64,000 nucleotides of DNA from Zhenpiania hominis (GTDB lineage Bacteria > Bacillota > Clostridia > Peptostreptococcales > Anaerovoracaceae). Under the pieces are notes generated by a model. It worked only from the letters and a program-made list of their open reading frames with translations. It had not been told where the DNA came from and made no database searches. Made by a program: the position numbers and the translations under genes. Position 1 is the stretch's first letter. The number at the start of each line of letters is the position of its first letter. The stretch spans positions 62,001 through 126,000 of the forward strand of contig NZ_JACRYT010000005.1 of assembly GCF_014333425.1 (NCBI RefSeq), written 5' to 3'. Below, piece after piece: positions 7,832 to 63,711 of this stretch.

Positions 7832-7848
7832 AGGCAAATATATCTACT
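7832..7848 (+). other. left attachment site (attL) with inner arm
   Basis: The core hexamer AGGCAA (7832-7837) belongs to the cpaF codons for Q-A. It is followed by the left arm ATATATCTACT (7838-7848), which mirrors the right arm with one mismatch. A six-base junction matches the 6-7-base core used by Tn554-family recombinases. Confidence 0.8.
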
Positions 7849-7894
7849 AGAGAAAAAATGCGTTTGATGTTTTTTAACAAATTTCAAAATCATA

Positions 7895-7923
7895 TTGCAA
7901 AATTTACATTTTTTGCATATAAT
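7895..7923 (+). promoter_or_regulatory. rightward left-end promoter with embedded operator-like inverted repeat
   Basis: TTGCAA (7895-7900), a 17-base spacer and TATAAT (7918-7923) are near consensus. Between and overlapping them is an inverted repeat TGCAAAA ... TTTTGCA (7896-7902 and 7911-7917), placed where a repressor would block polymerase. It reads into the element from the left end, 47 bases from the arm. No ORF of note begins until 8238, leaving a 300-base leader. Confidence 0.6.
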
Positions 7924-8237
7924 AACTATAAATTACAAGATACTTTTTTTCATAATTATAAATTGGAACAGGTTAAAGATGAGAAAGCTGATAGAAACAG
8001 TTGAGATAAGAGTAAACAAGTTATTAAATCTTTCAAGCAGTTAAATACGAGTGCAAGAAAGGAGAAGTTCAAAGAGTATTAAAAAAGGAGATCAAATAGT
8101 GATATAGTATGAGAGCCAGATCGAAATGTTTTAATCAATAGTGAAGCTACAAAAGGAAATGCGTAATAGTACCTAAATCGCTCCACCAAAAAAGCGAAAG
8201 AGATGTTAAAAAATATAATATTTGGCAGGAAATACAG

Positions 8238-9515
8238 ATGGATAAGATAATATTAGAAAAAGGATGGGATTTATCGGCATATTCCGGTTTATGCAGTTAT
8301 GGTAAAACACTTTTTAACACTGGAACTCTTTCCACTTACTTTTGTGCAAAGCAAGACTGGAATACATATCGATTTTTGCTTCAAGAACTCCATCTAAAGC
8401 AATTAGAAGGAGTGGATTTCCATGGAAGAGAAACATTTGAGGAAAGAATAAATAAATTAAAAGGGATCGATGAAATTTCTATATTAAAAAAACTATTTAA
8501 GTTAATTTGTATGCCAGGATGGTTAAGCGAAAAAATAGCATATATTTATTCATGGGAGCAAATTGATTATGCTTGGAAGGGATTCACGCAGCCAATGGAT
8601 CCAGAAAAACGGAAACGATTAAAAGAAGTGGTGCGCGAGTTAGAATTATTAGAAGCAGATGATACGCTACCAATGGGAGAAAAAGCAATTCGAAGAAACA
8701 ATTTGAAGGCAGAAAAGAAATATCTTAACGATGGGCCAAGTTACTATCCAATGAGACGGAAGAAAACAGGGGATAAGATTTATAAGACTTGTTTTGAGGA
8801 TCATATCTCGAGACTTATTATGAGAGAACTTAGAAAATATAAGAATGGAGAGCCGATTCCTAATACCCCTTCATCTTGCTTGAGTGAGGAAAAAGGTGAG
8901 GCGCTTGTAACCAACCAGTTTTTAAAAGAAACGATACTGCACGATGAACCTCAGAAGAAAAAAGAGAAAGCGATCCTTTATGTGCATGGTGGACTGATTC
9001 AATGTCTTAAGGAGAAGCACCCGATAGAAAGCCGTAAAGCAAAGGTCTACACAATACGAGGCATTGTAGAATTGAATATCAATTACTGTCAAAAATGTAG
9101 CATACATTTTATTAGCATTGATGAGTTAAGATACTATCTAAAAAAATATCAGGCGATTTTTACAGATTTTCGTTGGATCGAAGAGAACAGTGCCCGAGAA
9201 GATGTAATAAATTATAGTTCTCAAATCCATCAATCGCCATTGTATTTATGTGGATATACAGTGGACTCCAAGATTGGTTTAGATGCTTCGACAAGGCAAA
9301 ACATTCTAAGCAAGATTATAGATTTCGAGATTCTAAAGAAATATGAAATTATTCAGTATTTAGATTTTTTTATCAAACGGAATGGAGCGATTCAGGCTAA
9401 TAAATTTGCAAAAGAAAAATGGAAGTCAGATATCGAATTTGTAAGAAGTTATCACTTTGAAACGCAGCAAGAGGTGTGCATAAAACAGATCAAGCGCATA
9501 CAAAAGAAACGTTAA
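8238..9515 (+). CDS. unrecognised 425-aa protein with a CxxC zinc-ribbon-like motif
   Basis: I do not recognise a named family. Residues 1-180 are mixed charged and aromatic sequence. The middle (about 245-310) reads like a small beta-rich module containing N-Y-C-Q-K-C-S-I-H-F-I-S, one Cys pair of a possible zinc ribbon, with H-P-I just before it. The C-terminal 90 residues (L-C-G-Y-T-V ... K-W-K-S-D-I-E-F-V-R-S-Y) are helical and have the look of a helical repeat I associate with clostridial mobile-element proteins of unknown function. Its codons are AT-richer than those of the transfer genes. It is the first gene inside the left end, so a nucleic-acid role at the element end is possible but unproven. 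Upstream (8005-8237) I see no other gene. Confidence 0.7.
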   Translation: MDKIILEKGWDLSAYSGLCSYGKTLFNTGTLSTYFCAKQDWNTYRFLLQELHLKQLEGVDFHGRETFEERINKLKGIDEISILKKLFKLICMPGWLSEKIAYIYSWEQIDYAWKGFTQPMDPEKRKRLKEVVRELELLEADDTLPMGEKAIRRNNLKAEKKYLNDGPSYYPMRRKKTGDKIYKTCFEDHISRLIMRELRKYKNGEPIPNTPSSCLSEEKGEALVTNQFLKETILHDEPQKKKEKAILYVHGGLIQCLKEKHPIESRKAKVYTIRGIVELNINYCQKCSIHFISIDELRYYLKKYQAIFTDFRWIEENSAREDVINYSSQIHQSPLYLCGYTVDSKIGLDASTRQNILSKIIDFEILKKYEIIQYLDFFIKRNGAIQANKFAKEKWKSDIEFVRSYHFETQQEVCIKQIKRIQKKR

Positions 9516-9554
9516 ACGTATTAATAGTATTCTAACTAAGAAAAGGAGGATGAG

Positions 9555-9806
9555 ATGAAAAGTACAGGAATCGTGAGAAGGATTGATCCCCTGGGGCGAA
9601 TTGTACTTCCGAAAGAGCTACGACGAACCTTAGATATTGAACTTAGAGATTCAATAGAAATATTTACTGATGGGGATAGGATTTTGCTGAGAAAGTATAG
9701 AAAAAACTGTATCATTTGTGGTTCGGAAAGCGATCTTATGACCTTTAAGGGAAAACCTGTTTGCAGGGCATGTATTGAGAGTCTAAGAAGAGAAACTTGT
9801 GAATAA
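9555..9806 (+). CDS. AbrB/SpoVT-like transition-state regulator with C-terminal zinc ribbon
   Basis: 83 aa. Residues 1-47 form the swapped-hairpin AbrB fold: K-S-T-G-I-V-R-R-I-D-P-L-G-R-I-V-L-P-K-E-L-R. A short C-terminal ribbon has two Cys pairs, C-I-I-C-G and C-R-A-C. This architecture is common in clostridial AbrB-like DNA-binding regulators. A strong AAAAGGAGG site precedes the ATG at 9555. It sits 39 bases downstream of the unknown 425-aa gene and may control the left-end promoter or sense host growth state (inference). Confidence 0.9.
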   Translation: MKSTGIVRRIDPLGRIVLPKELRRTLDIELRDSIEIFTDGDRILLRKYRKNCIICGSESDLMTFKGKPVCRACIESLRRETCE

Positions 9807-12272: not shown

Positions 12273-12316
12273 TACACTAAAAAGAGGATAATTAAATGGA
12301 AGGCAGGAGATGGAAG

Positions 12317-13996
12317 ATGGAGAGAACGAAATGGCATAGATGGATAGGACTACTTCTGATGATTCTAGTAATCAGCGGGAACTGTGGATGGAATCTGGAT
12401 ACCGTATATGCAAGCATGATAGGAAGAGTTACAAAGGTGAAGACACTTCCACAAGGTGTCCATACGATTCAGATAACCTGGAACCGAATAAAAGGCGCAA
12501 ACTTTTATCAGATTTACCGTGCAGCAAAAAAGCAAGGACCATACAAAAAAATTAAAAAGACGAGGAAACGTTCTTTTTTCGATCGAAAGCGGGTGCCAGG
12601 AAAACGATATTGGTACCAAATTCGCGCTTGCAGGGGTAAATCGAAAGGATCATTCTCAAGAAAAACCAGCGGAATGTCCAAACCGGAAACCGTAACCGGG
12701 TTAAAGGTAGAACAGGTGTCGGATCAATGCCTTAATATAAGTTGGAAGCGAGCAAAGGGTGCAACTGCCTATCAACTATACCGATCTACATCCAAAACAA
12801 GTTCTTATAAAAAGATAGGGAAGATAAGGCGTACGAATTATCAAGATAGCCAACTTCAACCTGAAAAAACGTACTTTTATAAAGTCCGTGCATGCCGTGG
12901 AAATGTATATGGTAAATTTTCAACTCAAAGAAGTGGCCGGACTCGTGGGAGAGAGCGGCAACAGGTTACGATTCCAAAGAATCCCATACCGGATCCGTCC
13001 CTGGCTACACAGCGGCATCTGAAAATCTTAGATATGGAAACAGGGCAGGAAGTACAGGAGTTAAGCGCAGGAGAAGATTATCTGCTTTCCTCAAGCAGCT
13101 TATATGCAATGTCCACTTCGGAAGCCTATGATGCAGATTCAAAAACAAAAGCAATGTCCTATTGCCATATTACACCACAAAGGAGTGAGGAAGGAATCTT
13201 AAAAGCGGTTCTTTCTCCGCTTCTTGCTGGAACGCTCTACTTTCAGAATGAAGATGGAATTGAACGATCTTATCCGATTACAGAAGGGACCAAGATTCAG
13301 ACAGCCTCTATGAATATCGAACTGGGAGGAGCGGTTCCGCCAGGATTTATCGAAAGCTATGAGACGATCTATAATCGGCAATATCTGTATCAAGTGGAGA
13401 AAAATCCGGAGCATCTTATTCTGATTGGGGCGGAAAATGAAAGAGTACAAACCGTATTTTTGATGGAACCCTATCAGATAAATACCGAGAATGCGTATTT
13501 AGAAGTGACGCAGACTGCATTTGGCGGGACGACTATCCAGCCAATCCGCTACTATAGTGATAAACTTTTGGAAGGACGGCTAAATTCATCTATTTCATTG
13601 CTTCGAAATGAAAGTACCCTGGCGAATATCGTGGCGAATGCTATTCGCGCGGGGAATGGACTTTGTGACTTGATAGAGAAAGAAGATCTTACGAAGAAAG
13701 CAGAAGAACAAGCCATACGTGTCTCTACATACAACGGGAACTCTTCCTATTGGCACAATCTCGGAGGAAATCCAGGGCAACGCTACGGGAACTGTGGCTA
13801 TCAATCCGTAAATGAAAATATCACAAAAGGCGGAATGGGAAGCGCACATTGTGTAGCTGTGGCGGCAATTGACGCCTATTATACTTCACCAGGCCACCGA
13901 CAGAACCTCTTAGCACCGTCCCATGCTTATATTGGAACGGGGATTGTGTATCATGGAGCAGACAGCTTTACGATTACCCAAGCCTATGCAAAATAA
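12317..13996 (+). CDS. secreted CAP (SCP/PR1) domain protein with two fibronectin-III-like repeats
   Basis: About 559 aa. A signal peptide (M-E-R-T-K-W-H-R-W then a hydrophobic core, cleavage near V-Y-A-S) is followed by two Fn3-like repeats (about 35-115 and 120-205), each with an I-(T/S)-W-x-R-x-K-G-A-x-x-Y-Q-(I/L)-Y-R strand. A middle region of about 200 residues is unassigned. The C-terminal CAP domain (about 430-559) shows S-x-x-W-H, the N-x-x-Y-Q/S-V-N-E-N motif, H-C-V-A-V and S-P-G-H-R-Q-N-L-L. ATG 12317 has AGGAGA six bases upstream; the in-frame ATG at 12296 is an alternative. No sorting signal, so it is released. Surface cargo of the element, possibly acting on recipient cells or the gut environment (inference). 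Confidence 0.85.
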   Translation: MERTKWHRWIGLLLMILVISGNCGWNLDTVYASMIGRVTKVKTLPQGVHTIQITWNRIKGANFYQIYRAAKKQGPYKKIKKTRKRSFFDRKRVPGKRYWYQIRACRGKSKGSFSRKTSGMSKPETVTGLKVEQVSDQCLNISWKRAKGATAYQLYRSTSKTSSYKKIGKIRRTNYQDSQLQPEKTYFYKVRACRGNVYGKFSTQRSGRTRGRERQQVTIPKNPIPDPSLATQRHLKILDMETGQEVQELSAGEDYLLSSSSLYAMSTSEAYDADSKTKAMSYCHITPQRSEEGILKAVLSPLLAGTLYFQNEDGIERSYPITEGTKIQTASMNIELGGAVPPGFIESYETIYNRQYLYQVEKNPEHLILIGAENERVQTVFLMEPYQINTENAYLEVTQTAFGGTTIQPIRYYSDKLLEGRLNSSISLLRNESTLANIVANAIRAGNGLCDLIEKEDLTKKAEEQAIRVSTYNGNSSYWHNLGGNPGQRYGNCGYQSVNENITKGGMGSAHCVAVAAIDAYYTSPGHRQNLLAPSHAYIGTGIVYHGADSFTITQAYAK

Positions 13997-14022: not shown

Positions 14023-14053
14023 AGAAGCGTTGGAATCTCCGCGCTTCTTTTTT
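14023..14053 (+). terminator. intrinsic terminator after the CAP-domain gene
   Basis: An AGAAGCG / CGCTTCT stem with a 12-base loop and TTTTT, 27 bases after the stop codon. Confidence 0.8.
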
Positions 14054-14127
14054 GATCGGGAAGGGATATATGAAGGATATACGAAAACGGTTAAAAGAAC
14101 CTTAAGCTACGAAAGAAATGAATGCAG

Positions 14128-14150
14128 AAGACCTTCGGGTCTTTTTCTTT
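14128..14150 (+). terminator. second intrinsic terminator (UUCG loop), possible attenuator
   Basis: A perfect AAGACC-TTCG-GGTCTT hairpin followed by TTTCTTTT, 42 bases before the adhesin ATG. Lying between the preceding terminator and a gene start, it could act as an attenuator in the adhesin leader. Confidence 0.75.
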
Positions 14151-14191
14151 TACAAAAAGTAGATGCCAAGATGAAGAAAAGGGGAACTCTT

Positions 14192-17100
14192 ATGGAAACG
14201 GTAAAGAAAAAAGGAAAACGATTTCTGATTTTGCTTTTGATTGCAATGCTGATTTGCGGAATTCCATTAGAAGTCCGTGCTGGAGCTGTGAAAGAATCCA
14301 ACATAGCTCAGAACGGAGAAGCGATCCAATTGGAGGCAGCAGATATAAAAACAGAAAGCGTAATGAAAGAATTAGAGCAACAAAATGGGATGGTACTGTT
14401 CAGTACCGGAGCATCACCGCTTGCTGCAAACGCTCGTGTGGAATTAACCTATTCCAGAACCATCCAGTATGAAAATTTCTTTACGAGGAATTTTCGTGTA
14501 AAAATTGACGGAAAGACAAAAGTTGCATATTGTGTTCAACCAAAAGAAACACCACCTGCAGAAGGTGCACATACAGCAATCGATTATAATAACAAGCTTA
14601 TGAGTAAGGCACTATACTACAGTTGGGGCTATCCGGGATATGATCGGAATACCAAGCAGTATGTAAGTAAAAAGGATGATGACGATGATTGGGCAGACGA
14701 TGATGATGCCTACGCGCTTTGTCATATGATTCTAAGCTACTTATATGATAAAAGCAGTGCGGATTCAGACGCTTTTTACGGTGTCAGCAGCGACACGATT
14801 AAACTTGTCAAACAGGTAGCTGATAAAATCGAAAATGACTGGCCCGATGCACCTACGGATTCCTCATTAAAACTAAATTATTCCAGCGTCAAGGCAACGT
14901 GGGATGCAGAAAATCAAGTGCAAGAAACACCTGTATTTCGTCTAACTGCGCATTCCGATAATCGAATCCAGATCCCACTCCCCAAAGGCGTCAAAATCCA
15001 TCGGACTCGTGATGGTGTTACGAAAACCTATGGAAGCGAACGAACAATTAAGGTATATGGTGGTGATACCTTTTATTTTACGGCGGACAAGAGTGTAAGA
15101 GGAACTTGGAAGACAGGAAATTTAGAGGGTTCTCTGTCCAGTTTTAATCCTTATTTAATAAGGGTTTCCGGAAGCCAGGATATTCTTTTTTGCGGTACTG
15201 GAGAAACTTCTAACACTTCCTTTTCGGTTACCTGGGTAGAATGGGGAAAATTAACCGTAAAAAAACTACTGGAAGACGGAGAAAAAAGTATCGATCTGGA
15301 ACTGGATTTTTACGATGGGATTCAATTTCAACTTACAGGAAATAACGTAAATATTGCCTTAAAGCCGGACAAAAATGGGAATCTTATAGATTCAAATGGA
15401 AATACAACTTTGGAACTGTTACCTGGCACTTATGTTTTGAGTGAAACTTCTGTGCCGGATCGATATCGGGAAAAACTTCAAAAGGAGATTATTATTACAG
15501 CAGGGGAAGAACGCAAAGAAAGCTTGAATAACCTTGTGAAAAAAGGAAATTTTCGCCTTCTAAAGGTTTATAAAGAAGACCTGCAGGACAACGAATCCAT
15601 CGTTTTTGATCGGGAAGCCGGGGTGGTATTCCGCGTTTGGGACGCAGATTATTACATGGCAGGCTGGAATTTTGAAGATGTGCCAACCATGTTTAAAGAT
15701 GAGATTACAACGGATCAGAATGGAGAAGCCGGGACGAAAGACCTGCCGGTGGGTGAGTATCTGGTTCAGCAGGTGACAACCGATCAGAACCACTGGAAAG
15801 TGAAAGACTTTTTTGTTGACATCGAAGATAAAACAACCACAACAAAACCGATTACTGTGATTGGAAACAAAACGACCGAAGTACCCGTGAAATTTATTAA
15901 AATTGATGCAGAGACCGAGAAAGTGGTACGGATTGCTGGAATTCAGTTCCAAGTATATGATCGGGAAGGTAATTTGATTATACAACAGGATAAAAAAGGA
16001 AATCCGGTTGATACTTATGTGACAGATGCAAACGGAGAGGCCTGGATGGAAGCCGCATTGCCGGCAGGCCAGTATCAGGTAAAAGAAATCAAGGCTCCTC
16101 CGGGTTATGCACTTGCAGATGAGATGGTTTCCTTCTCTGTCAATTCCGAGACCCAAAAAGGAGAAGTCATCGAAGTACGAGTTGCGGATAAACCGCAAAA
16201 AGTGGAACTCCTGCTTCATAAACAGGCAGAGACCTTTCTTCCAGATCCAACATATGCACGCTTTTCCTATGTGGAGATGGCCATGCCATTTGTCAAATTT
16301 GATGTAATGGCGGCAGAGGACATAGAGACTGGAGATGGAACCATCCGGCTTAAGAAAGGATCCATTGCAGAATCCGATCTTTTGACCGATGAACAGGGAA
16401 GTGCACAGACAAAGCCACTGTACCCAGGAAAGTATGTCATACTCGAAAAAGGTTTATACAGTAAAGTAAAACAATATCATCTGAAGGAAACCGATCTTAC
16501 AAATATCGTTACAAACTGGCAGATCGCATTACAAGATGCAGGAAAGAAATTACCATCTCAAATAGAACGTGAGGCCTTTGAAACGGCACTTTCCAAGCCA
16601 TTAGAGCAGGAATTTAAAATCGATCATGAAGGGAATAGCTTCTGGGAAGCACCAAGAGTTACAGGGCCAGAGTATTCGTTTGATTCCATTCAGGAAAAAA
16701 TTCTACAAGATTATCTGCGCGACCTTCCGGTGGAACAGATAGAAGAAATCTGGAGAGAACTTTCTTTGGATCGGTATGATGTACCACAGGATGGAATTGT
16801 CGCACAGGTAGAACTGAAAGCGGATGAAGCTGCAGTTGAAATTACAAGACAGGAACTGACAATCAAAAATAAGCTGAAAAAAGGCGGAATGAAACTTACA
16901 AAAACGGATCTCAGTGACGGAAGACCGATTCCAAATACAGGGATACGCATTTATTTGGAAGATCAAAGGACGGTTATTTTTGAAGGAAGAACTGATCAAG
17001 ATGGAATCCTCACTATTCCAGAACTTCCGATCGGCCACTACTATTTTCAGGAATACGACGCACCTTCGGGATACCTAATTGATGAGAATCTCTATTCCTT

Positions 17101-17947
17101 TACCATTCAGGAAGGAATCATAACAAAGTGCCAGATGACTAATCAAATGCAAATGGGGCGGATCCGGATACAGAAAAGCGGAGAATCTTACCAAATTAAG
17201 GATAAAAAGGAGTATCTCTATGAAAAAAACGAAGCTCTTGCAGGAGCCGAATTTGCAGTGATAGCGGCGGAAAATATTTATTCTCCTACTGGACATCTGT
17301 ATGTAAGAAAAGGTGCTACTGTAGAACGAATGGTAACGAATCAAAAAGGACAGGCAGAAACAAGACCACTGCACTTGGGAAAATATCAGATAAAAGAAAT
17401 CAAAATCCCAGAGGGATATGTGAAAGCAATCGATCGTCTTGTTGAACTGAAACCGGGAGAGCAAAATATAGAAGTCGTTGACGTACAGGTAAATATCCAA
17501 AATCACCGAATCAAGGGCGGGGTAGAAATCAGCAAGGTCGATGTTTCTACCAAGGAACCTCTACCAAACACCGGAATCCGTATTTTAGATGAAAGAAAAC
17601 AGGAAATCTTAAAAGGAAGAACGGATAAAGATGGAAAACTGACATTTCAAAAGATGCCTGCAGGAATTTATTATTTCCAGGAATTTGATGCTCCACCGAA
17701 TTATCAACTTAACGAAGAAGCGCATCTATTTGAAATAAAAGAAGATGGGGAAATCGTTCGATGTGAAATGACCAACAAAGCAAATCCAGTAGTGATGGGG
17801 AATACTCCCCAAACTGGTGATGGGAATAAAATTGGACCGTTGATCGGGATTTTACTGCTTTCTTTGATTGCCTTGTTCTTTGCAGCTCTCACAAAACGAA
17901 GGGATGTCGAAGAATGGGAGAATCAAGAAGTCGATCAAGATAAGTAG
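14192..17947 (+). CDS. large sortase-type surface protein: thioester-like domain plus SpaA/Cna-B repeats
   Basis: About 1251 aa. ATG 14192 (AAGGGGA upstream) begins a signal peptide (K-K-K-G-K-R-F-L-I-L-L-L-I-A-M-L, cleavage near V-R-A-G). Residues 90-200 resemble a thioester domain: A-Y-C-V-Q-P (Cys about 114) and, later, D-D-A-Y-A-L-C-H-M-I-L-S-Y; the second partner (normally Gln in T-Q-x-A) appears as C-H here. Several SpaA/Cna-B isopeptide-type repeats follow (G-x-x-x-(L/I)-x-K-x-D ... G-x-Y-x-(F/V)-x-E-x-x-A-P-x-G/N-Y), two of them near-duplicates around 900 and 1100. The C-terminus has N-T-P-Q-T-G-D, a hydrophobic stretch and a basic tail, i.e. a sortase signal of variant type. An upstream in-frame region (14030-14191) spans a terminator and is not used. 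Adhesin or mating-contact protein by inference. Confidence 0.87.
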   Translation: METVKKKGKRFLILLLIAMLICGIPLEVRAGAVKESNIAQNGEAIQLEAADIKTESVMKELEQQNGMVLFSTGASPLAANARVELTYSRTIQYENFFTRNFRVKIDGKTKVAYCVQPKETPPAEGAHTAIDYNNKLMSKALYYSWGYPGYDRNTKQYVSKKDDDDDWADDDDAYALCHMILSYLYDKSSADSDAFYGVSSDTIKLVKQVADKIENDWPDAPTDSSLKLNYSSVKATWDAENQVQETPVFRLTAHSDNRIQIPLPKGVKIHRTRDGVTKTYGSERTIKVYGGDTFYFTADKSVRGTWKTGNLEGSLSSFNPYLIRVSGSQDILFCGTGETSNTSFSVTWVEWGKLTVKKLLEDGEKSIDLELDFYDGIQFQLTGNNVNIALKPDKNGNLIDSNGNTTLELLPGTYVLSETSVPDRYREKLQKEIIITAGEERKESLNNLVKKGNFRLLKVYKEDLQDNESIVFDREAGVVFRVWDADYYMAGWNFEDVPTMFKDEITTDQNGEAGTKDLPVGEYLVQQVTTDQNHWKVKDFFVDIEDKTTTTKPITVIGNKTTEVPVKFIKIDAETEKVVRIAGIQFQVYDREGNLIIQQDKKGNPVDTYVTDANGEAWMEAALPAGQYQVKEIKAPPGYALADEMVSFSVNSETQKGEVIEVRVADKPQKVELLLHKQAETFLPDPTYARFSYVEMAMPFVKFDVMAAEDIETGDGTIRLKKGSIAESDLLTDEQGSAQTKPLYPGKYVILEKGLYSKVKQYHLKETDLTNIVTNWQIALQDAGKKLPSQIEREAFETALSKPLEQEFKIDHEGNSFWEAPRVTGPEYSFDSIQEKILQDYLRDLPVEQIEEIWRELSLDRYDVPQDGIVAQVELKADEAAVEITRQELTIKNKLKKGGMKLTKTDLSDGRPIPNTGIRIYLEDQRTVIFEGRTDQDGILTIPELPIGHYYFQEYDAPSGYLIDENLYSFTIQEGIITKCQMTNQMQMGRIRIQKSGESYQIKDKKEYLYEKNEALAGAEFAVIAAENIYSPTGHLYVRKGATVERMVTNQKGQAETRPLHLGKYQIKEIKIPEGYVKAIDRLVELKPGEQNIEVVDVQVNIQNHRIKGGVEISKVDVSTKEPLPNTGIRILDERKQEILKGRTDKDGKLTFQKMPAGIYYFQEFDAPPNYQLNEEAHLFEIKEDGEIVRCEMTNKANPVVMGNTPQTGDGNKIGPLIGILLLSLIALFFAALTKRRDVEEWENQEVDQDK

Positions 17948-18017: not shown

Positions 18018-18353
18018 ATGAATCGAGTGACATTAATCGGGAGACTGACAACCGAACCGAAAGTATCAGAAACAGAGACAACAACTGTGTTGAATATGGT
18101 GATTGCAGTCAGGCGGCCAACCAAAGACGATAAAGCGGACTTTCCACTTATCACGGTATTTGGAAAATTGGCGAACCATTGTGCCGAACATCTGCAAAAG
18201 GGAAGCCTGATTGGAGTGGATGGGAAACTGCAGACCAGTCGGTATGAAGATGAAACCGGACATATGACTTATCGCTGCAATGTGGTAGCAAATAAAATTG
18301 ATTTTCTGAGTTGGGGAGAACCGCGCGATGAAGACGAAGCCGATTCGGAGTAG
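18018..18353 (+). CDS. ssb: single-stranded DNA-binding protein
   Basis: 111 aa, an OB-fold without the usual acidic C-terminal tail of chromosomal SSBs (ends D-E-D-E-A-D-S-E, a short acidic stretch, but lacks the D-D-I-P-F tip). Signatures: N-R-V-T-L-I-G-R-L-T-T-E-P at the start, P-L-I-T-V-F-G-K-L-A and G-S-L-I-G-V-D-G-K-L-Q-T-S-R-Y-E. ATG 18018 behind GGAAAGGAA. First gene of the transfer operon, it probably coats the transferred strand. It overlaps mobC by 26 bases. Confidence 0.93.
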   Translation: MNRVTLIGRLTTEPKVSETETTTVLNMVIAVRRPTKDDKADFPLITVFGKLANHCAEHLQKGSLIGVDGKLQTSRYEDETGHMTYRCNVVANKIDFLSWGEPRDEDEADSE

Positions 18354-18690
18354 TCAGTCCCCTGTTCGAGTCTATTTATCGAAAGAAGAACATCTGCGTC
18401 TGAATCGGCTATGCCAAGCGAGCGGTTATTCGAAGTCGGCCTATTTCCGAAGCCTTCTGAATTTATCGGTACCAAAGCCAAAGCCGCCGATTGAGTATCA
18501 TCTGTTTATGAGGCATCTTTCTGCTGTCGGGAACAATCTGAATCAAATTGCAAAAGTGGCGAATGCATTCGGAATTGTGAAACCAGAGGAATGGGAACAG
18601 ATTTCTCTGGAATTAAAAACACTCATACTGGAAATTCGGAGGGATTTTCAGCTTCCGGAAAGAATGAATGATGGCAATCACAAAGATTAA
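18328..18690 (+). CDS. MobC-like relaxosome accessory protein
   Basis: 120 aa. N-terminal ribbon-helix-helix-like segment (V-R-V-Y-L-S-K-E-E-H-L-R-L-N-R-L) and the MobC hallmark G-N-N-L-N-Q-I-A-K at about residue 70, then a long helix. MobC proteins bind the origin of transfer and assist nicking. Overlaps ssb upstream and the relaxase downstream, so the three are translated as a unit. Confidence 0.88.
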   Translation: MKTKPIRSSQSPVRVYLSKEEHLRLNRLCQASGYSKSAYFRSLLNLSVPKPKPPIEYHLFMRHLSAVGNNLNQIAKVANAFGIVKPEEWEQISLELKTLILEIRRDFQLPERMNDGNHKD

Positions 18691-49445: not shown

Positions 49446-49463
49446 GGAAAGGAGAACGGATTC

Positions 49464-50144
49464 ATGCTGGATATAGAATTTGGAAATTTGCAGGAACCAG
49501 AATATGGACGAAGAGAGGCGCTGAATTCACTTAGAACGAATATACAGTTTTCCGGATCGGGATTACAGACATTGTTGTTTACAAGCTGTCAACCTAACGA
49601 GGGAAAGAGTACCATATCGTTTGAGTTGGCATACTCAATGGCAACAAATGGAAAAAAGACGGTGTTCGTCGATGCCGATCTCAGAAAGTCGGTAACGATC
49701 AATCGATATAAAATTACTAACCAAAGAAAGCGAATCGGCGGTTTGTCGCACTATTTGTCGATGCAGGCAACTCTGGACGATGTCCTTTGTCATACAAATG
49801 TAGAAAATATGGATATCATTTTATCAGGGCCTTATACACCGAATCCTACCGCCTTATTCAATGAACCTGCGTTTGATGTACTCTTACAAACGCTTAGAAA
49901 GTTATATGACTATGTGATTATAGATACCCCACCGCTTGGGGCCGTCATCGATGCTGCAGTCATAGCACCTAAGTGTGATGGGGCAATCCTTGTTCTGGAA
50001 GCCAATATGACAAATTCCAGGGCAGCTATCAGCGTAAAAAAGCAACTTGAGCTTGTAGGTAGCAACATATTGGGAGTAGTCCTTAATAAAGTCCCTGTAA
50101 GGAGTAGTGGATATTATTATCAGTATTATGGTGAATACAAATAG
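49464..50144 (+). CDS. CpsD/CapB-type bacterial tyrosine kinase
   Basis: 226 aa. P-loop P-N-E-G-K-S-T (about 46-52), Walker A' V-F-V-D-A-D-L-R, Walker B V-I-I-D-T-P-P, and the C-terminal Tyr cluster S-G-Y-Y-Y-Q-Y-Y-G-E-Y-K. Autophosphorylates on the tail and regulates polymerization with CpsB and CpsC. Complete phospho-regulatory triad. Confidence 0.92.
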   Translation: MLDIEFGNLQEPEYGRREALNSLRTNIQFSGSGLQTLLFTSCQPNEGKSTISFELAYSMATNGKKTVFVDADLRKSVTINRYKITNQRKRIGGLSHYLSMQATLDDVLCHTNVENMDIILSGPYTPNPTALFNEPAFDVLLQTLRKLYDYVIIDTPPLGAVIDAAVIAPKCDGAILVLEANMTNSRAAISVKKQLELVGSNILGVVLNKVPVRSSGYYYQYYGEYK

Positions 50145-50162
50145 CGGAGGGAAGATGCATAA

Positions 50163-54128: not shown

Positions 54129-55217
54129 TTATTTTTTCACTTCCATCCGTTCTGCCATGGACGTAAGCACATCGCTGATGGAAGCTTTTAATTCTTCGGC
54201 CGTCTTAGAATTTAGTTTCCGGAGCCGACTGAGACTTTCTTCTAAATCCTCGTAAGTTTGTTGAAGACTGAGTAAAATGTATTCACATTTTACAGCTTCC
54301 TTTGCCATTCTGGCACGAAGATTTGCTGCTTTTTTGTCAGCATCCAGCTTTTCTGCCTTTTCTTTTAACTTTTCCAACTGTTGATTGAATTTTTCTGTTG
54401 CTTTGCGCATTTCATCGTCTTTTTTTCGCAACACTTTTTCCGTTGCCTCTTTTTCTGCCTGTTGTAAGGCGTTTAACTCTTTTTGGTGAGCGGAAATAAG
54501 GGCTTCTTTTTCTTTAAGTAAAGACGATTTTTCCTGTTCCGCTTTTTTCAGCTTTTCCCGCTCTTCTGCAACTAATTGCTCCAACTGTTTCTGTACTTCC
54601 GTGTCACGATTCTTTTCTGCCTGTAGAGCCTGATCTTCCAGAGAGGAAATTTTTTTTGTCAGGGCTTCGATCCTGTTTTGATTTTCTGCCTCTTGTTTTT
54701 TCTGTTCTTGTTCTTTTTTCTCGAATACCGTTATCTTTTCTTGAAGTACCACATTTTCCTGTTTCGCTTCTTGAATCATCTTTTTTAGTTGTGCAATGGA
54801 CATGTCCGTCACATTATTTTTCTGTACAAAAGGTTCTCGATCTTCGGAAGGAAGTGCTAATAATTGTAATGCCTGAGAATATCCGATATTCGCAAACGTC
54901 TGCGAATTTGCAAGGCCAGTTTTACCATATTCTTCATAAAGCTTCATTAGGTTATTCGCTGTGCGCTGAGAAAACTCAACACGCTCTTTCAACCAATCTG
55001 CCCACTTCCCATGTTTGATAATCTGCTTTGCCTCAGTCAACCGTTTCCCAATTTCAATGGAATTTAGGAGGACGGTTTGCTGCGTTTGGGCGGTGATCAT
55101 GCGGATTTCTGTTACAAGCTGTGTTTCCTGTTGCGAATGATCCATTTCAACAAAGCTTTCGTTTGTAGTTGCCATAGCGGTATGTTCTTCTTTTTTCATT
55201 TCTGTATTGTTCTTCAT
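54129..55217 (-). CDS. DUF3102-type protein with long coiled coil
   Basis: 362 aa. N-terminal DUF3102 block: I-M-T-A-like region then A-K-Q-I-I-K-H-G-K-W-A-D-W-L-K, F-S-Q-R-T-A-N-N-L-M-K-L-Y, and the motif N-S-Q-T-F-A-N-I-G-Y-S-Q-A-L-Q-L-L (about residues 100-120). From about 150 to 330 it is a very charged coiled coil (Glu/Lys/Gln-rich). DUF3102 proteins occur on clostridial ICEs with suspected ParB-like or structural roles. The codons for N-S-Q-T-F-A-N contain a 20-bp near-palindrome also found at 30647 (see findings). Confidence 0.75.
   Translation of the reverse strand: MKNNTEMKKEEHTAMATTNESFVEMDHSQQETQLVTEIRMITAQTQQTVLLNSIEIGKRLTEAKQIIKHGKWADWLKERVEFSQRTANNLMKLYEEYGKTGLANSQTFANIGYSQALQLLALPSEDREPFVQKNNVTDMSIAQLKKMIQEAKQENVVLQEKITVFEKKEQEQKKQEAENQNRIEALTKKISSLEDQALQAEKNRDTEVQKQLEQLVAEEREKLKKAEQEKSSLLKEKEALISAHQKELNALQQAEKEATEKVLRKKDDEMRKATEKFNQQLEKLKEKAEKLDADKKAANLRARMAKEAVKCEYILLSLQQTYEDLEESLSRLRKLNSKTAEELKASISDVLTSMAERMEVKK
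54888..54907. repeat. 20-bp near-palindrome, copy 2 of 2, inside the DUF3102 gene
   Basis: ATTCGCAAACGTCTGCGAAT; 19 of 20 bases equal the copy at 30647-30666 and 9 of 10 base pairs are palindromic. It is within codons for the conserved N-S-Q-T-F-A-N of the protein. Confidence 0.7.
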
Positions 55218-57858: not shown

Positions 57859-58332
57859 ATGATTGTGAAGCGAAATCACTTTATAAACATACGCTTGAAA
57901 GGGAAGGTGATAGTCATTTCTTTTTATGAAAAAGTAGAACGGGAATTTGATGCTTACTGCAAGCGTACCCTGAAAAACAAACTGGTTGATTACAAACGGC
58001 AGCAAGCCTGTCTTCGTAGGAAAGAGCTTTCCTTTGATGAGACGCAGCAAAGAAAACTGGATCAATTTTTCTCTACGATGGATGAGTATTTTGCAGATAT
58101 GATTCAGTTTGGAGATTATGCAATCGAGTTGAAAGATGAAACGCTCTATAAGGCCCTGTTGCAACTATCCGAAGAGAAGCAGATGATTCTTATTTGCCAC
58201 TATGCAATGGGAATTAGCGACAGAGAGATTGCAACTCAGTTAGCACTTCCCAAAACAACGGTCCGATACCGAAGGGAGGCGGCGTTACAGAGGTTAAAAT
58301 CTTTGATGGACCAAGGGGCAAAGAACGAATGA
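57859..58332 (+). CDS. sigma-70-like regulatory factor (Tn916 Orf7-like)
   Basis: 157 aa. N-terminal part (F-D-A-Y-C-K-R-T-L-K-N-K-L-V-D-Y-K-R) resembles sigma region 2 remnants, and the C-terminal third is a region-4 HTH (I-S-D-R-E-I-A-T-Q-L-A-L-P-K-T-T-V-R-Y-R-R). The ATG at 57859 lacks a good ribosome site; an internal GTG near 57907 behind AAGGGAAG is an alternative. Followed by an ATGA-overlapped small HTH protein, the same pair found in Tn916-type elements. It probably regulates ICE excision/transfer genes. Confidence 0.82.
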   Translation: MIVKRNHFINIRLKGKVIVISFYEKVEREFDAYCKRTLKNKLVDYKRQQACLRRKELSFDETQQRKLDQFFSTMDEYFADMIQFGDYAIELKDETLYKALLQLSEEKQMILICHYAMGISDREIATQLALPKTTVRYRREAALQRLKSLMDQGAKNE

Positions 58333-58936: not shown

Positions 58937-60058
58937 ATGAAGTTTTATCAGGTGGAATCTATCAAAGAGCAGGAAATCGTTTATTATATTATTCGGAGAA
59001 TGACTGATTTTTGTATGCTTCCGGAAGAAAGTCAGTATCTTGCCTATCGGATTCGTACGAACCTATCACCCAATACGGTGAAGCGCGCGGCATTTTCCAT
59101 TATGTATTACTGCGAGTTTCTAAAACAAAAGGATTTAAGAAAAGAAGAGATCTGGCAACTTTCTTTTGCGTTCCAGCACGAGCATTTCATTGAATTTTTG
59201 AATTGGTTAAAAAATGGGAACCATACGGATCGTAAAGGAAAATTGCCAAGTAATCGAACCTGTAATATGTACCTGAGAGATGTATTAGAATTTTACCGTT
59301 ATCTTGAACAGCAGGGAACGGAAGAATTAAAAGTGCTTTCGGAACAGGAGAACACCTTTATAACTTCCTGTGGCATTCGGAAGCATAAAATGATCAGGCG
59401 ATTTCGAGGTTTCTTCAGAGAGGAGCCATCCAAAGGGGATAGCATTACAGCAGAACGTATCGGAGCACTCGTGGCAGCTTGTACGAATCTGAGAGATTCC
59501 CTGCTTCTGCTACTTCTGGCAGAAACCGGATTTCGAATTGGAGAGATTCTGGGAATTCGATTGGAGGATATTGATTTTTCTTCCAGACAAATTCAAGTCC
59601 AGTTTCGATCCAATAATAAAAATCAGGCGAGAGCAAAAAACGCAGAATATCGAAAGGCACTTTTAAGTCCGACCACCTTTTCTCATTTAACAACCTATCT
59701 GACACAATGCAGAAAGAATGGATATTCGGATTATCTATTCGTGAACTTAGAAGGAAAACAGCTTGGCCAACCCATGAAGGTACAAAGCGTTTATGCGATG
59801 CTAAAACGATTGGAACAGAAAACCGGAATTGCAAGCCATCCACATCAACTCCGTCATTATTTTGCTAATGCACGGTACAATGCAGGCTGGGAGTTGCTTT
59901 TGATTAGTAAAGCTCTTGGTCACAGGCAGCTAGAGACCACGCGCAACTATCTGAATCTGGAAGAGGAAACGCTGCGCAGTGCGTCTCAAACGTATTTTGA
60001 ACAGACTGAAGCGCTTACGCAGATTTCGACGCTGATTGGAAACGGAGGGCAAGAATGA
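58937..60058 (+). CDS. tyrosine recombinase 1 (Tn554 TnpA-like)
   Basis: 373 aa. SAM-like N-terminal domain (T-V-K-R-A-A-F-S-I-M-Y-Y), catalytic domain with Arg I in E-T-G-F-R-I-G-E (about 200), H-Q-L-R-H (about 303), G-H-R and the Tyr in T-R-N-Y-L (about 337). All catalytic residues are intact. Length matches Tn554 TnpA (about 361). ATG 58937 behind GAGAGGGA; overlaps recombinase 2 by four bases. Confidence 0.92.
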   Translation: MKFYQVESIKEQEIVYYIIRRMTDFCMLPEESQYLAYRIRTNLSPNTVKRAAFSIMYYCEFLKQKDLRKEEIWQLSFAFQHEHFIEFLNWLKNGNHTDRKGKLPSNRTCNMYLRDVLEFYRYLEQQGTEELKVLSEQENTFITSCGIRKHKMIRRFRGFFREEPSKGDSITAERIGALVAACTNLRDSLLLLLLAETGFRIGEILGIRLEDIDFSSRQIQVQFRSNNKNQARAKNAEYRKALLSPTTFSHLTTYLTQCRKNGYSDYLFVNLEGKQLGQPMKVQSVYAMLKRLEQKTGIASHPHQLRHYFANARYNAGWELLLISKALGHRQLETTRNYLNLEEETLRSASQTYFEQTEALTQISTLIGNGGQE

Positions 60059-61743
60059 AATCGAATGTACAGAGCCAGCGAGCAGATACAGGGCTTTCTG
60101 CCCTTGGGATTTTGCAGGAAATCGAAGCCTGTCCGGTTCTTGCGGAACGGCAAAAACAGAAGCTTTGTTCCTTTTTCACTTCTTATCCACACCGTTCCGC
60201 AAAAGAGATTACCTATTCGGATCGGGAAGCGTATGGAGTGTATCTGCTTCAGACTGGAGTAAAGAAAAAGCATGCGGAATATCTGCATGCTTTGGATCAA
60301 TTCAAACTTTGGTATCAGGAAATGCAGCCACTTACAGTTGTCGAAAAGCGCCTTTCGTTTACTGACGATCGCATCTTTCTTCTTTATCATCCAGATACGA
60401 GAATTGCAAAGGAGCTTTTCAAAACAGCGGATAAGGAAGAACTGCTTTGGGACTTTTCCCAACCTGCTTCAGAATCTTTTACCGATCAGGTGTTTGAACT
60501 TCTGAATACAATTTTAATGCAGCCAATGGATCGGAAGCTTCGGAGAGCCAGGCTTCTGGTACTCAAACAACTCTATGCGTTTGGTATTCGGTATCACCTT
60601 TCTTCGATTCTGCACCTGGATTTGGCAGACGAAAAGCGATTTGAACTGTATTTAAATCAAACACCCCATCTGCAACGCTACCGAAAATCAGCGCTCTCTT
60701 ATTTTCGAAAGACCTTATTTCTGCAATCGGATTCCATCTGTTGGGATGCAAGCGTCTGGTATTTAGAACGCTTTCATTTGGATTCGGCAAGGGTGAACGT
60801 GGCTAATCCAGTCCGTCAGTTTTCCTTTTTAGAAATCCAAGATCCGGAGCATCGGAGATATGGGCAGCAGTATCTTCGTTACTTGCTGGGTGCAACGGAA
60901 CTTTCGATTGCAACGATTCGTTTTCATTATAGTGTGTGCAAATCATGTTTCCGCTTTCTGGAACAGGAAGCCATTTCTTTCACAGAACTGAAGGATTCCG
61001 TGTTGGAAGACTTTCTGCATGCAGAGAAGACTGATTGTGCGGAAACTATCAATCGAAAGGTGATTGTGTTAAGCCAGATGTTCCATTATCTGTCTGTTCG
61101 GGAGAACCTGTCCGTTCCGTTTGACAGCGCACTTCATATTCGAAAAAGCCAGCCGTACCACTATAGGGGGAATGTGACAGAAAAACGAATGGAGGAAGTT
61201 ATAGATGCCTTGTCCGATTTGGATACAACACTTCGGCTGATGGTTGTGACCCTTTTTTGTACCGGACTTCGAAAAAATGAGGTGTGTGTGTTGACTGGAG
61301 ATTGTCTGTCCCATGATGGGACCGATGGATGGATTCGACTGTACCAGTCCAAGCTTCGAAAAGAAAAACGGATCCCCATTCCGGACGGATTGTATCAGAT
61401 GCTGAAGCAGTATATCGAAACCGAACGTAGAACGGCGAATGACTACCTGTTTCAAAATGCAAAAGGGGATGCGTATAATGCGCAGACGTTTACGAATCGG
61501 ATGCGAATGGCCTGCGGGAAATGGAACTTTGCGCAAGATGGGTACCAGTTTCGAGCACATGCCTTTCGGCACTGGTTTGCAACAGAACTCTTTGAGGAAT
61601 CCAACCTTCAGGTTGTCCGGGAATTCTTAGGACATGACCATGATGATATGACGAAAGCCTATATTGATGGAATTCCCAGGCAGATTCAGGAAAAAAGCCA
61701 CGCTTATTTTATGGAACATGAAAATGAATTTATGAAAGACTAA
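60055..61743 (+). CDS. tyrosine recombinase 2 (Tn554 TnpB-like, large)
   Basis: 562 aa. Long N-terminal arm-binding region, catalytic Arg in C-T-G-L-R-K-N-E (about 405), H-A-F-R-H (about 502), G-H-D and nucleophile Tyr in K-A-Y-I-D (about 536). Size is between Tn554 TnpA and TnpB (about 630). ATGA overlap with recombinase 1. Catalytically intact. Confidence 0.92.
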   Translation: MKSNVQSQRADTGLSALGILQEIEACPVLAERQKQKLCSFFTSYPHRSAKEITYSDREAYGVYLLQTGVKKKHAEYLHALDQFKLWYQEMQPLTVVEKRLSFTDDRIFLLYHPDTRIAKELFKTADKEELLWDFSQPASESFTDQVFELLNTILMQPMDRKLRRARLLVLKQLYAFGIRYHLSSILHLDLADEKRFELYLNQTPHLQRYRKSALSYFRKTLFLQSDSICWDASVWYLERFHLDSARVNVANPVRQFSFLEIQDPEHRRYGQQYLRYLLGATELSIATIRFHYSVCKSCFRFLEQEAISFTELKDSVLEDFLHAEKTDCAETINRKVIVLSQMFHYLSVRENLSVPFDSALHIRKSQPYHYRGNVTEKRMEEVIDALSDLDTTLRLMVVTLFCTGLRKNEVCVLTGDCLSHDGTDGWIRLYQSKLRKEKRIPIPDGLYQMLKQYIETERRTANDYLFQNAKGDAYNAQTFTNRMRMACGKWNFAQDGYQFRAHAFRHWFATELFEESNLQVVREFLGHDHDDMTKAYIDGIPRQIQEKSHAYFMEHENEFMKD

Positions 61744-61758: not shown

Positions 61759-63249
61759 ATGAAAAAACAGGCACACCAAAGCAATGGATTGGAACTGCAA
61801 GCGTGTTCGGATGCACGCAGCAAACATCGTGAAGAAGCATGGAAGGCTCCTTTACATTGGCTCAAGAAGGAGAAGCTGCGGGAGGAACTACGCACCTTTC
61901 TGGACACTCGTGTACAAGAGGTTTCATTTACTACCTGGAAAAAGGAGAAATCTCCCTGTCGACAGGTTTGTCGGTTTTTAGAAGAAAAGGAATCTGAGTT
62001 GAAAAGTTTTCATGAAAAAACCTATGAGGAACTTAAACAGAGTCTGACCGCATGGCTGCTTGCAAATGGGTATGTGGTGTATAAGAAGCACTATCGTAAG
62101 GATAGAGGGAAATATACTTATCAGGATGCGGATGCAATCTGTTATTTAAAAAAGATCTATCGATTTTTAGGCAAAAAGGAGGAGTCGGAAGTTTCGGATC
62201 CGTGGGACTTGCGTTCCCTGGATATTCCTCCGGAACAAAATCCAATCAATCCACATTATCGGTTAGATTTTGTAGGAATCAAACAAGATGCAATGCGACA
62301 GGAAGTGAAAGACGTGTTGGCTTTTCATGCTCGATATAAAGCGGCGGAGACACTGCGGCTGGAATTGTGGGCAGTAACCGCTTTTTCCCGTTTTTTGCAG
62401 AAGAGCTTCCCAGAAGTGGAGTCGTTTAAACAGATTCAAAGAGTGCAACTGGAAGACTACCTTATCTATGTACGGACAGAATCAAAACTGAAAAGTTCCA
62501 GTTATGCTTCGCAGTTTGTACATTTAAAGAATGTATTCATTGATCTCGGACAAATGAAGGAATGGCCGCATTTGACCAATCTCTTTTTAAAAACAGATTT
62601 TAAGACACGGATTACAATCAAAATGAAAATCTATTCGGAAGAAGAACTGAAACGACTGAATCAAGGAATTGTAACATTGGAACCACAAGTTGCACGGGCA
62701 CTGTTCCTGCATCAGATTCTGGGGCTTCGAATTTCAGATACACTGACGCTGCGAACCGACTGTCTTCTTGAGAAGTGTGCAGGTTTTGTGATTCGCATCC
62801 ACCAGCCGAAAACGACATCCTATGAAAAGCCAATCACGGAGGAGGTGATGCAGTTGGTGCAGGCCGCAATTTCGAATACCTTTCAGAACCATGGAGAAAC
62901 GGACTATATCTTCGTTCAGGATCGCCATCCGGAAAAACCGATGTCCTATGGGAAAGTGGAATATCAATTGAAGGCAATGATTCGAGAAAAACAAATCTTA
63001 GATGATCAGGGAACTCTCCTTCAATTTGGTACACATATTTTTCGGCATAATTATGGAAAGAAATTGGCGGAATTGGGGCTGGATGATTATACGATTATGC
63101 AGCTTCTTGGACATTCTACGTTACGATCGATACGACATTACCGGATGTTAGGTAGCAAACAGTTAGCAGAAGAGACAAGAGAGATGCGCAACAAGCTGGA
63201 TCGGCGCATACGGCCATATTTACAGGAGTGGGGTTATGAAGAAGTATGA
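61759..63249 (+). CDS. tyrosine recombinase 3 (third member of the cassette)
   Basis: 496 aa. Arg in L-G-L-R-I-S-D (about 324), H-I-F-R-H (about 426), G-H-S and Tyr in R-H-Y-R-M (about 460), all intact. Tn554 has two tyrosine recombinases plus TnpC, so a third full-length enzyme is the unusual part. Fifteen bases after recombinase 2, AAGGAAGGA ribosome site; overlaps the TnpC-like gene by 14 bases. All three differ from each other and are not recent duplicates. Confidence 0.9.
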   Translation: MKKQAHQSNGLELQACSDARSKHREEAWKAPLHWLKKEKLREELRTFLDTRVQEVSFTTWKKEKSPCRQVCRFLEEKESELKSFHEKTYEELKQSLTAWLLANGYVVYKKHYRKDRGKYTYQDADAICYLKKIYRFLGKKEESEVSDPWDLRSLDIPPEQNPINPHYRLDFVGIKQDAMRQEVKDVLAFHARYKAAETLRLELWAVTAFSRFLQKSFPEVESFKQIQRVQLEDYLIYVRTESKLKSSSYASQFVHLKNVFIDLGQMKEWPHLTNLFLKTDFKTRITIKMKIYSEEELKRLNQGIVTLEPQVARALFLHQILGLRISDTLTLRTDCLLEKCAGFVIRIHQPKTTSYEKPITEEVMQLVQAAISNTFQNHGETDYIFVQDRHPEKPMSYGKVEYQLKAMIREKQILDDQGTLLQFGTHIFRHNYGKKLAELGLDDYTIMQLLGHSTLRSIRHYRMLGSKQLAEETREMRNKLDRRIRPYLQEWGYEEV

Positions 63250-63598
63250 GAAAATGCTTGAAGTTAATCGGAAACGAAATCAGGAAAAGGAACAGCTTGC
63301 TCGGAAGGCCATTTTTTCTCTGAAACAGGAAGGCCTTCCGATTTCAGTTGCAACATTGGTGCAACGTACCGGATTATCAAGAGGGTACTTTTATAAAATG
63401 AAAGAAATCAGAGACCTTTGGGAAAAGGAGCAGGCAACTGGGGTTCAGGAACCTGTAGGAGAGTTTATAGATCCACGTGATAAAGAGATTGAGAAGTTGA
63501 AAGCAGAGCGAGATTATTTGATAGAAGAAAAAAAGAGACTGGAGCAAGTCTTAAAAAAATATGAGCTTGGATTTTTAACGAGAAAGGACAGAATGTAA
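63236..63598 (+). CDS. TnpC/DUF6262-like recombination accessory protein
   Basis: 120 aa. N-terminal helical pair and an HTH (V-A-T-L-V-Q-R-T-G-L-S-R-G-Y-F-Y-K), then a coiled coil (I-E-K-L-K-A-E-R-D-Y-L-I-E-E-K-K-R-L). Matches the TnpC of Tn554, which affects efficiency and orientation of integration. Last gene of the element. Overlaps recombinase 3. Confidence 0.87.
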   Translation: MKKYEKMLEVNRKRNQEKEQLARKAIFSLKQEGLPISVATLVQRTGLSRGYFYKMKEIRDLWEKEQATGVQEPVGEFIDPRDKEIEKLKAERDYLIEEKKRLEQVLKKYELGFLTRKDRM

Positions 63599-63643
63599 TC
63601 CCGTTAATGAACTATAAGTGTGCATATTGTGTATTATGTAGAA

Positions 63644-63678
63644 CCGTTGTAATTCTAAAGGCTGCAACGGCTTTTTTT
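63644..63678 (+). terminator. intrinsic terminator at the right end
   Basis: CCGTTG / CAACGG (63644-63649 and 63665-63670), followed by CTTTTTTT. Ends the recombinase operon 28 bases before the right core. Confidence 0.85.
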
Positions 63679-63694
63679 ATGGGAAAAGAACAGG

Positions 63695-63711
63695 AGTACA
63701 TATATAGGCAA
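63695..63711 (+). other. right attachment site (attR) with inner arm
   Basis: Right arm AGTACATATAT (63695-63705), inverted relative to the left arm with one mismatch, followed by the core AGGCAA (63706-63711) and then host cpaF codons. Confidence 0.8.

Follow-up and report, generated by a model that had tools for sequence, protein, structure and literature searches.

In a 64,000-nucleotide stretch of the Zhenpiania hominis genome (contig NZ_JACRYT010000005.1, positions 62,001 to 126,000; hereafter, the window), the gene for the Tad pilus motor CpaF is interrupted by a 55,874-bp element. We read this element as a site-specific integrative and conjugative element (ICE) with a recombination module of the Tn554/GInt kind, i.e., three tyrosine recombinases and a TnpC/GinD-like DUF6262 protein, and assign this reading a probability of roughly 0.78. 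Genes for a relaxase, a coupling protein, VirB4 and the mating pore lie within the integrated element, and this conjugation module supports the ICE identity proposed in an earlier annotation of the window (hereafter, the original prediction).

Equivalent positions of the two AGGCAA copies that flank the element are 55,874 bp apart, and excising one copy together with the intervening DNA gives an unbroken cpaF frame of 391 codons that stays open to the end of the window. Across the junction the joined translation reads EVMDMIQA-MNTGHDGSLSTGHGNS. The 6-nt core begins with the last two bases of a Gln codon, takes in an Ala codon and ends on the first base of the codon after it, immediately 5' of MNTGHDGS. 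We take this insertion point to lie 3' of the Walker A and Walker B motifs and directly 5' of the His-containing motif MNTGHDGSLSTGH. The interrupted upstream open reading frame (ORF) keeps 295 CpaF residues and gains about 55 residues encoded by the element; because the C-terminal part with the conserved His motif is missing, the insertion should inactivate that CpaF. On the element side, the left arm ATATATCTACT and the reverse complement of the right arm (ATATATGTACT) are identical at 10 of 11 positions. The original prediction had described both halves of one cpaF, the frame restored by removal of one AGGCAA copy, an 11-bp inverted repeat with one mismatch and a size of 55.9 kb, each of which was confirmed.

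An uninterrupted cpaF with the same junction, which the original prediction proposed to seek in related Clostridia, was found in databases at the protein level. A protein search with the joined CpaF recovered an intact 409-aa protein (P0102) identical at 390 of 391 query residues, with the difference at residue 22, and EVMDMIQAMNTGHDGSLST spans the junction in all 48 best-ranked matches (P0102–P0149) and in 67 of the 120 best of 7997 matches. Given these intact proteins, the split of cpaF is not a chance arrangement. Judged by their identity, the closest intact CpaF proteins would belong to the window's own species; the nearest named relatives among the matches listed were Anaerovorax odorimutans (80%) and an Anaerovoracaceae bacterium (74%), and this one protein would tentatively place the host within that family or close to it. 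Another database CpaF (P0219, 308 aa) matches the window's at 99% identity in its first part. It is missing the region that runs from Walker B to the His motif, is out of frame beyond that gap, and is apparently a deletion allele in the same region.

The recombination genes occupy the right end of the element, with about 51 kb of it upstream of recombinase 1. R, HxxR, H and Y are all present in recombinases 1, 2 and 3 (the first arginine of 1 and 2 was read by eye); in recombinase 3 they correspond to R324, H426xxR429, H452 and Y461. This protein aligns with Tn552-II TnpB at 24% identity over about 427 columns (E 9e-24), whereas recombinase 2 gives a weaker match (E 7e-15). Tn552-II TnpC matches DUF6262, the same Pfam family as the fourth recombination gene of the window, whose protein in the GinD position gave only weak Curtobacterium matches when compared with plasmids.

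Other elements at the same codon, which the original prediction likewise proposed to seek, were found in 13 other genomes by related recombinases or ends, and neither of the outcomes that would have refuted that prediction was obtained. When genomes were scanned with an alignment built from relatives of recombinase 3, 135 loci encoding such proteins were found, the best 80 of which were kept (33–40% identity to the window's protein), and a DUF6262-like tblastn match lies just downstream of recombinase 3 in all 80. The C-terminal half of cpaF follows at the same codon in seven of these loci (L030, L041, L046, L048, L050, L064 and L080), the remnant at L064 looking degraded; the window's recombinases are about 33–48% identical to those of the seven. 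Both cpaF halves are on one contig in five of the seven genomes, about 41.1, 21.8, 19.6, 19.6 and 15.9 kb apart. In addition, 397 genomes were sampled from the family of one carrier, Blautia luti (G003), and 389 had a CpaF match at E 1e-20. Thirty of the 397, picked by eye for a weak best CpaF match with other weak ones left out, were re-examined, and six of them have the same element type at that codon. Three (G239, G145 and G162) were recognised by recombinases 93–97% identical to those of L041, and three whose contigs end nearby (G290, G281 and G190) only by terminal sequences. Together with G002 and G003, which were also sampled, at least 8 of the 397 family genomes carry the element at this codon, and the total is 14 elements with the window included. 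Cultured carriers include Coprococcus comes MSK.16.63 and Blautia luti MSK.16.34. Comparable arms are found at both ends of the L041 type (TTATATGTACT / TTATATGGACT) and of the element in G001, the genome of L030 (TTATATTTACC / TTATATTTACT). The metagenome-assembled genome of L080 (G007) has a contig that stops within an uninterrupted cpaF junction. The 37 bases at that contig's end match exactly the beginning of the sequence that flanks the element on the right, which is on a different contig; empty and occupied forms of cpaF appear to coexist there, an assembly artefact being the alternative.

Both 6-nt cores were readable in 12 elements after alignment to the arms by eye (attL/attR: window AGGCAA/AGGCAA; G001 AGGCAC/AGGCAA; G002 TATGCC/AGGCAT; G003 AAAGCC/AAAGCC; G004 AGGCTT/AGGCGA; G006 CAGCAA/AGGCTA; G145 AGGCTT/AGGCTT; G162 AGGCGC/AGGCTC; G190 AGGCAT/AGGCAC; G239 AGGCGT/AAAGTA; G281 AGGCAT/AGGCAT; G290 ATGCCA/ATGCCA). 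The target in cpaF tolerates cores other than AGGCAA. The two cores differ in 7 of the 12 pairs, in one case at all six positions, and are identical in five. The AGGCAA pair noted in the original prediction is present at both ends of the window's element, but in view of these unequal pairs it need not be a target duplication.

The native side was decided from intact cpaF orthologues of the same genus. For G002, the genus gave 15 other matches, and all 9 of the loci read have L-[VIMT]-[CGS]-L-N-T-G, which fits attL (V-C) and not attR (E-A); in the genus of G004 and G239, Q-A-F-N-T-G in 6 of 6 fits attL (F) and not attR (I). In the genus of G006, S-S-A-M-L-N-G-H stands at each of the 9 loci read from 15 other matches and again fits attL. 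Q-A-C or Q-A-F in 4 of 4 in the genus of G190 agrees with attL (C) rather than with attR (R). G001 points in the same direction without being decisive, with M or L in 7 of 7 genus loci read (of 22 other matches), where attL gives L and attR gives I. The left core was the host's own and the right core foreign in all five decidable insertions, two of which are from one genus and perhaps not fully independent (G004 and G239, with N-terminal halves 99% identical). AGGCNN is the sequence of four of the five foreign attR cores. It is also what intact cpaF genes have most often: of the 30 family-sample loci nearest to the window's CpaF, 27 were readable and 17 had this form. The previous home of these elements was therefore probably also a cpaF, with movement from cpaF to cpaF. 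When Tn554-related elements and SEs move, the 6 bp that lay on their left at the donor site are found on their right at the new one (accessible text of PMC10214605), and for Tn552-II a 7 bp spacer and an 'att-brought-in' rule are given in the portion of PMC12486829 available to us. The core pattern, drawn from five cases, fits this rule.

Two other modes of integration bear on the same cores. Tn916 tolerates core mismatch, and if the cpaF elements used heterologous coupling sequences as Tn916 does, heteroduplex repair could leave the target's 6 nt at the left or the right junction alike. Heteroduplex resolution has been described for GInts (part of PMC5385486), and we nevertheless consider this mode unlikely for the cpaF elements, given that attL was the host's in 5 of 5 decidable insertions, a small sample for which the two-sided chance is 1 in 16 if sides are random. 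An ordinary integrase-type ICE would recombine identical 6-nt cores and leave a true direct duplication, any attL/attR differences being later mutations. Many ICEs do integrate via identical cores in element and target, as would suit the window and the four other identical pairs. This explanation seems to us improbable, with 7 of 12 pairs differing down to 0/6 and 1/6 matching positions, intact genes of genus-mates fitting attL and not attR in every decidable case, and AGGCNN in four of the five foreign attR cores, which decay would hardly produce.

For a site-specific ICE with a Tn554/GInt-type module, we propose that the recombinases would bind the TTATAT-NTAC-like arms and the conserved-motif DNA and cut 6 nt apart, giving a circle that carries 6 nt of the donor's left junction. 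The circle would transfer via the relaxase and type IV system that the element encodes and insert into a cpaF in the recipient, where the donor's 6 nt would end at the right junction, and the right core would be a record of the previous cpaF. Insertion would inactivate that CpaF and deliver the capsule locus and a surface protein. For the window's element, we infer excision, transfer and pilus loss.

At the same codon, G001 carries a 41-kb element whose gene order is that of the window, with homologues at 30–61% identity. The counterparts in it are, in order, MazE, the SpaA/thioester protein (a short match), MobC, relaxase, DUF3801, VirD4, TrbC, a 278-aa protein, PrgI, VirB4, M23, ArdC, DUF3102, sigma-70 and all four recombination genes; counterparts of SSB and DUF3846 were not found in this element, nor was any match to the window's capsule genes at E 1e-5. 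Because the order is kept at such identities, the conjugation backbone seems to have travelled with the recombination module for long, and since the backbone is shared without any capsule gene match, an old conjugative backbone probably took up the capsule locus as cargo. The cargo of the G002 element includes a type I restriction-modification system.

Several observations weigh against the ICE reading. Excision as a circle and transfer are predicted here from the genes, and the intact-allele evidence for the window's species consists of proteins, not DNA. Five of the 12 core pairs are identical, the window's included, which makes its cores consistent with the brought-in rule but silent on it; the halves in G162, G190, G281 and G290 are on different contigs and were paired by gene, one of these four being decidable. 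In one genome (G005) the split cpaF is accompanied by intact copies, so that Tad pili may persist even where one CpaF is lost. The elements of the L041 type (about 16–22 kb) are at the same codon, and none of the six whole ones has a homologue of the window's conjugation genes. This last point also favours a different view, in which a small non-conjugative island is all that belongs to the element at cpaF and the conjugation and capsule regions are unrelated insertions; we doubt it strongly, since the G001 element keeps the order of conjugation genes, regulators and recombinases, and the look of later cargo applies to the capsule locus alone. Finally, a large serine recombinase is present in the L041-type elements of G002, G003, G004 and G239. 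As the agent at cpaF it was ruled out, having not been found in G006 and G145. It belongs to an optional block (L104, 1542–6899, and counterparts), in which it is accompanied by DUF6551, by a 262-aa protein with weak similarity to it and by a helix-turn-helix (HTH) protein; the block has the same distribution (present in G002, G003, G004 and G239, not found in G006 and G145) and is perhaps a nested element.

Compared with known systems, the window's element shares with Tn554 and Tn552-II homologues of TnpA and TnpB and a DUF6262 TnpC. Its five decidable relatives fit the Tn552-II layout of a short spacer with target sequence on the left and donor sequence on the right (per the available text of PMC12486829), on which the window's own identical cores are silent. 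The element differs in its extra recombinase (recombinase 2), which makes three in all against two plus TnpC, in its size and content (56 kb with conjugation genes against 9 kb), in its target, cpaF, and in its layout, with cargo upstream of recombinase 1 and the DUF6262 gene adjoining the border. By gene order and Pfam, the operon of three recombinases and a TnpC-like fourth gene at one end resembles that of GInts (ginABCD genomic islands), for which 6-nt staggered cuts (as a proposal), strict target sites and large cargo are described in the accessible part of PMC5385486. The classical GinC lacks the first catalytic arginine (PMC5385486, same part) or the RHRY motif (PMC10214605, in part), whereas all three window recombinases look catalytic, GInts being compared here by description only. 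Moreover, cargo in the classical arrangement follows ginD with ginA at the border, whereas the ginD-like gene adjoins the border in the window, and GInts are termed putatively non-mobilizable in the text seen of PMC5385486, whereas the window has a conjugation module. With SEs, again compared by description only, the element shares four recombination genes, and its decidable relatives fit the 6-bp footprint copied from the donor's left to the new site's right; the SE proteins (IntA, Tfp, IntB and Srap) are distinct and the hosts Gammaproteobacteria (both from the available text of PMC10214605). According to the same text, RITs (recombinase in trio), which also have three adjacent tyrosine recombinases, comprise three coding regions and 34-bp terminal repeats, whereas the window has a fourth gene and arms of about 11 bp. 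The catalytic third recombinase, the operon placed the other way round and the conjugation genes set the element apart from a classical GInt, and the extra recombinase sets it apart from Tn554, but it would work like them. Tn1549-like ICEs of Clostridia have a MobA/VirD2 relaxase with MobC, VirD4, PrgI, VirB4 and an M23 peptidase; the window shares this conjugation gene set and differs in recombination module and target.

The element combines a Tn554/GInt-type recombination module with a conjugation module, kinds described apart in the literature as far as it was accessible. Such a combination would explain cell-to-cell movement of such islands, which the GInt authors were unable to demonstrate (PMC5385486). 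The cores offer a test of integration direction that needs sequence only and possibly a trace of the mobile element's previous host gene, and the element would couple loss of one surface structure, the Tad pilus motor, with gain of others (capsule and surface protein). A literature search that left preprints and most subscription papers outside its scope returned no report of such elements in cpaF; an insertion sequence in an Actinobacillus tadA/CpaF gene lies at an unrelated AT-rich target (PMC12561309, in part).

To the right of the recombination genes of the 80 loci, a scripted motif scan of right junctions assigned candidate targets, i.e., the Walker B region of ABC ATPases (n = 21), flavodoxin (n = 14, that is, 15 minus a false label at L030, a cpaF locus), Flp-like genes (n = 10) and cupin (n = 2). 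With the seven cpaF loci described above, 54 of the 80 are assigned and 26 are not. Loci recognised by eye were kept outside this strict count (Flp L007 and L009; flavodoxin L066 and L079; ABC L010, L017 and L070). Element-end sequence such as GGGTACATTTTA stands directly 5' of the motif in most assigned cases. Among the pieces checked, Flavodoxin_4 was found in 3 of 3 from about position 75–81 of 155, Flp1_like in 3 of 3 from position 18 of 49, and Cupin_2, just under its cut-off, in the single piece. One of three ABC pieces has the ABC C-terminal domain and two have no Pfam match; these two and one more match solved ABC ATPases from the Walker B region onward. No convincing left halves of the ABC, flavodoxin, cupin and Flp targets were found in a terminal-arm search up to 60 kb upstream of six loci and in 13.3 kb of a seventh.

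The target labels cluster on a recombinase 3 tree of 81 rows (22 unlabelled), with 6 changes against a shuffled mean of 28.9 and a value as low in 0 of 200 shuffles, a kind of test that near-copies inflate. The labels here were looser than the strict count and partly wrong or unsure (the ABC label of L024 is unsupported, L044 is a cupin locus and L057 is doubtful), and the pairing of the window with L030 in this tree was flagged as a long-branch join. L042 and L044 have identical recombinase 3 proteins, yet one adjoins an ABC gene and the other a cupin gene at a similar DNA stretch; the enzyme therefore reads DNA, not the protein motif as such. The recombinase 3 of L054 is nearly identical to these two; of the three genomes, one has an ABC ATPase gene next to the element and the other two a cupin gene, with a common DNA stretch around TGCCG. 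At even odds, we suggest that a large Clostridia family of elements with recombinase trios uses signature-motif DNA of big protein families (CpaF, Flp1, ABC Walker B, flavodoxin and cupin) for attachment. The target would then be a gene family, each recombinase clade would mostly stay with one motif, and the 6-nt right core would show which gene the element occupied before its latest jump. Of these five motifs, two belong to Tad pilus genes.

The cpaF motif region may be a wider insertion hotspot. In G306 (about 67 kb; L174 and L175), G011 (about 14 kb; L176) and G164 (L187 and L188), cpaF is split within about 15 nt of the window's site; the ends are unlike the window's, and no related recombinase was found in the parts fetched. 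These splits suggest convergence of different elements on the cpaF motif. Splits with other ends form a second cluster at the Walker B codons (RPDRIIVGEVRG), around residue 280, in G202, G064, G168, G319 and G270 (L185, L186, L190–L197), and G064 has a divergent recombinase trio (about 25–28% identity) at its Walker B split.

Features of the window's element and of the split cpaF are listed below. From left to right, the element opens with a MazE-family protein, DUF5688, a weak DUF6664 match, DUF6017, a CAP-domain protein and the SpaA-repeat/thioester protein. The conjugation module encodes, in order, SSB, MobC/NikA, a MobA/VirD2 relaxase, DUF3801, a VirD4-type coupling protein, a weak TrbC/VirB2 match, DUF3846, PrgI, a VirB4/TraG-like ATPase, an M23+3D peptidase and ArdC. 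It is followed by the small resolvase, the capsule locus, PfkB and protein kinase-like genes, an HTH/S24 protein, DUF3102, sigma-70 region 4 and the four recombination genes.

Features of the cpaF element and its flanks in the window (attL and attR, left and right attachment sites; positions are those of the window)
Feature	Position	Strand	Basis
cpaF 5' part, residues 1–295, ends I-Q-A	6952..7837	+	PF00437 E 3.5e-42, joined frame; ORF continues to 8004
attL 6-nt core AGGCAA	7832..7837	.	Same codon position in 12 attL sites read, window included
Left terminal arm ATATATCTACT	7838..7848	.	10/11 identical to reverse complement of right arm
MazE-family (PF04014) protein near left end	9555..9806	+	49% identity to counterpart near left end of G001 element
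CAP-domain and fn3 protein	12296..13996	+	Domain matches
1305-aa SpaA-repeat protein with thioester domain, putative adhesin	14030..17947	+	PF17802 (six stretches), PF20610
Conjugation module	18018..30641	+	Pfam matches; mostly same order in G001 element, 40–61% identity
Small resolvase-type serine recombinase	31129..31752	+	PF00239
Wzy-type capsule/exopolysaccharide locus	32559..51047	+	Pfam matches
Protein kinase-like protein	52058..52999	+	PF00069
DUF3102 protein	54129..55217	-	Domain match; counterpart in G001 element
Sigma-70 region 4 protein, 5' of recombinase operon	57859..58332	+	PF08281; counterpart in G001 element
Recombinase 1, GinA/TnpA-like, 373 aa, R-HxxR-H-Y present	58937..60058	+	PF00589; 30% over 344 aa to Tn552-II TnpA
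Recombinase 2, GinB position, 562 aa, catalytic residues present	60055..61743	+	Domain and residue reading
Recombinase 3, GinC position, 496 aa, catalytic residues present	61759..63249	+	Closer to Tn552-II TnpB than recombinase 2
GinD/TnpC-like DUF6262 protein	63236..63598	+	PF19776 E 4.2e-22; stop 107 bp from right core
Right terminal arm AGTACATATAT	63695..63705	.	Sequence comparison with left arm
attR 6-nt core AGGCAA	63706..63711	.	Sequence
cpaF 3' part, from MNTGHDGSLSTGH onward, ended by window edge	63706..64000	+	Joined frame

The capsule locus encodes a sugar transferase, glycosyltransferases, a sub-threshold Wzy_C match, a Polysacc_synt flippase, epimerases and a UDP-sugar dehydrogenase, and further LCP, CpsB/CapC, Wzz, a CpsD-like ATPase and a nucleotidyl transferase. 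The kinase-like protein also had PADLOC matches, which look like similarity shared by kinases in general and were set aside. SpaA-like repeats were also seen by eye upstream of the recombinase trio in the genome of L054.

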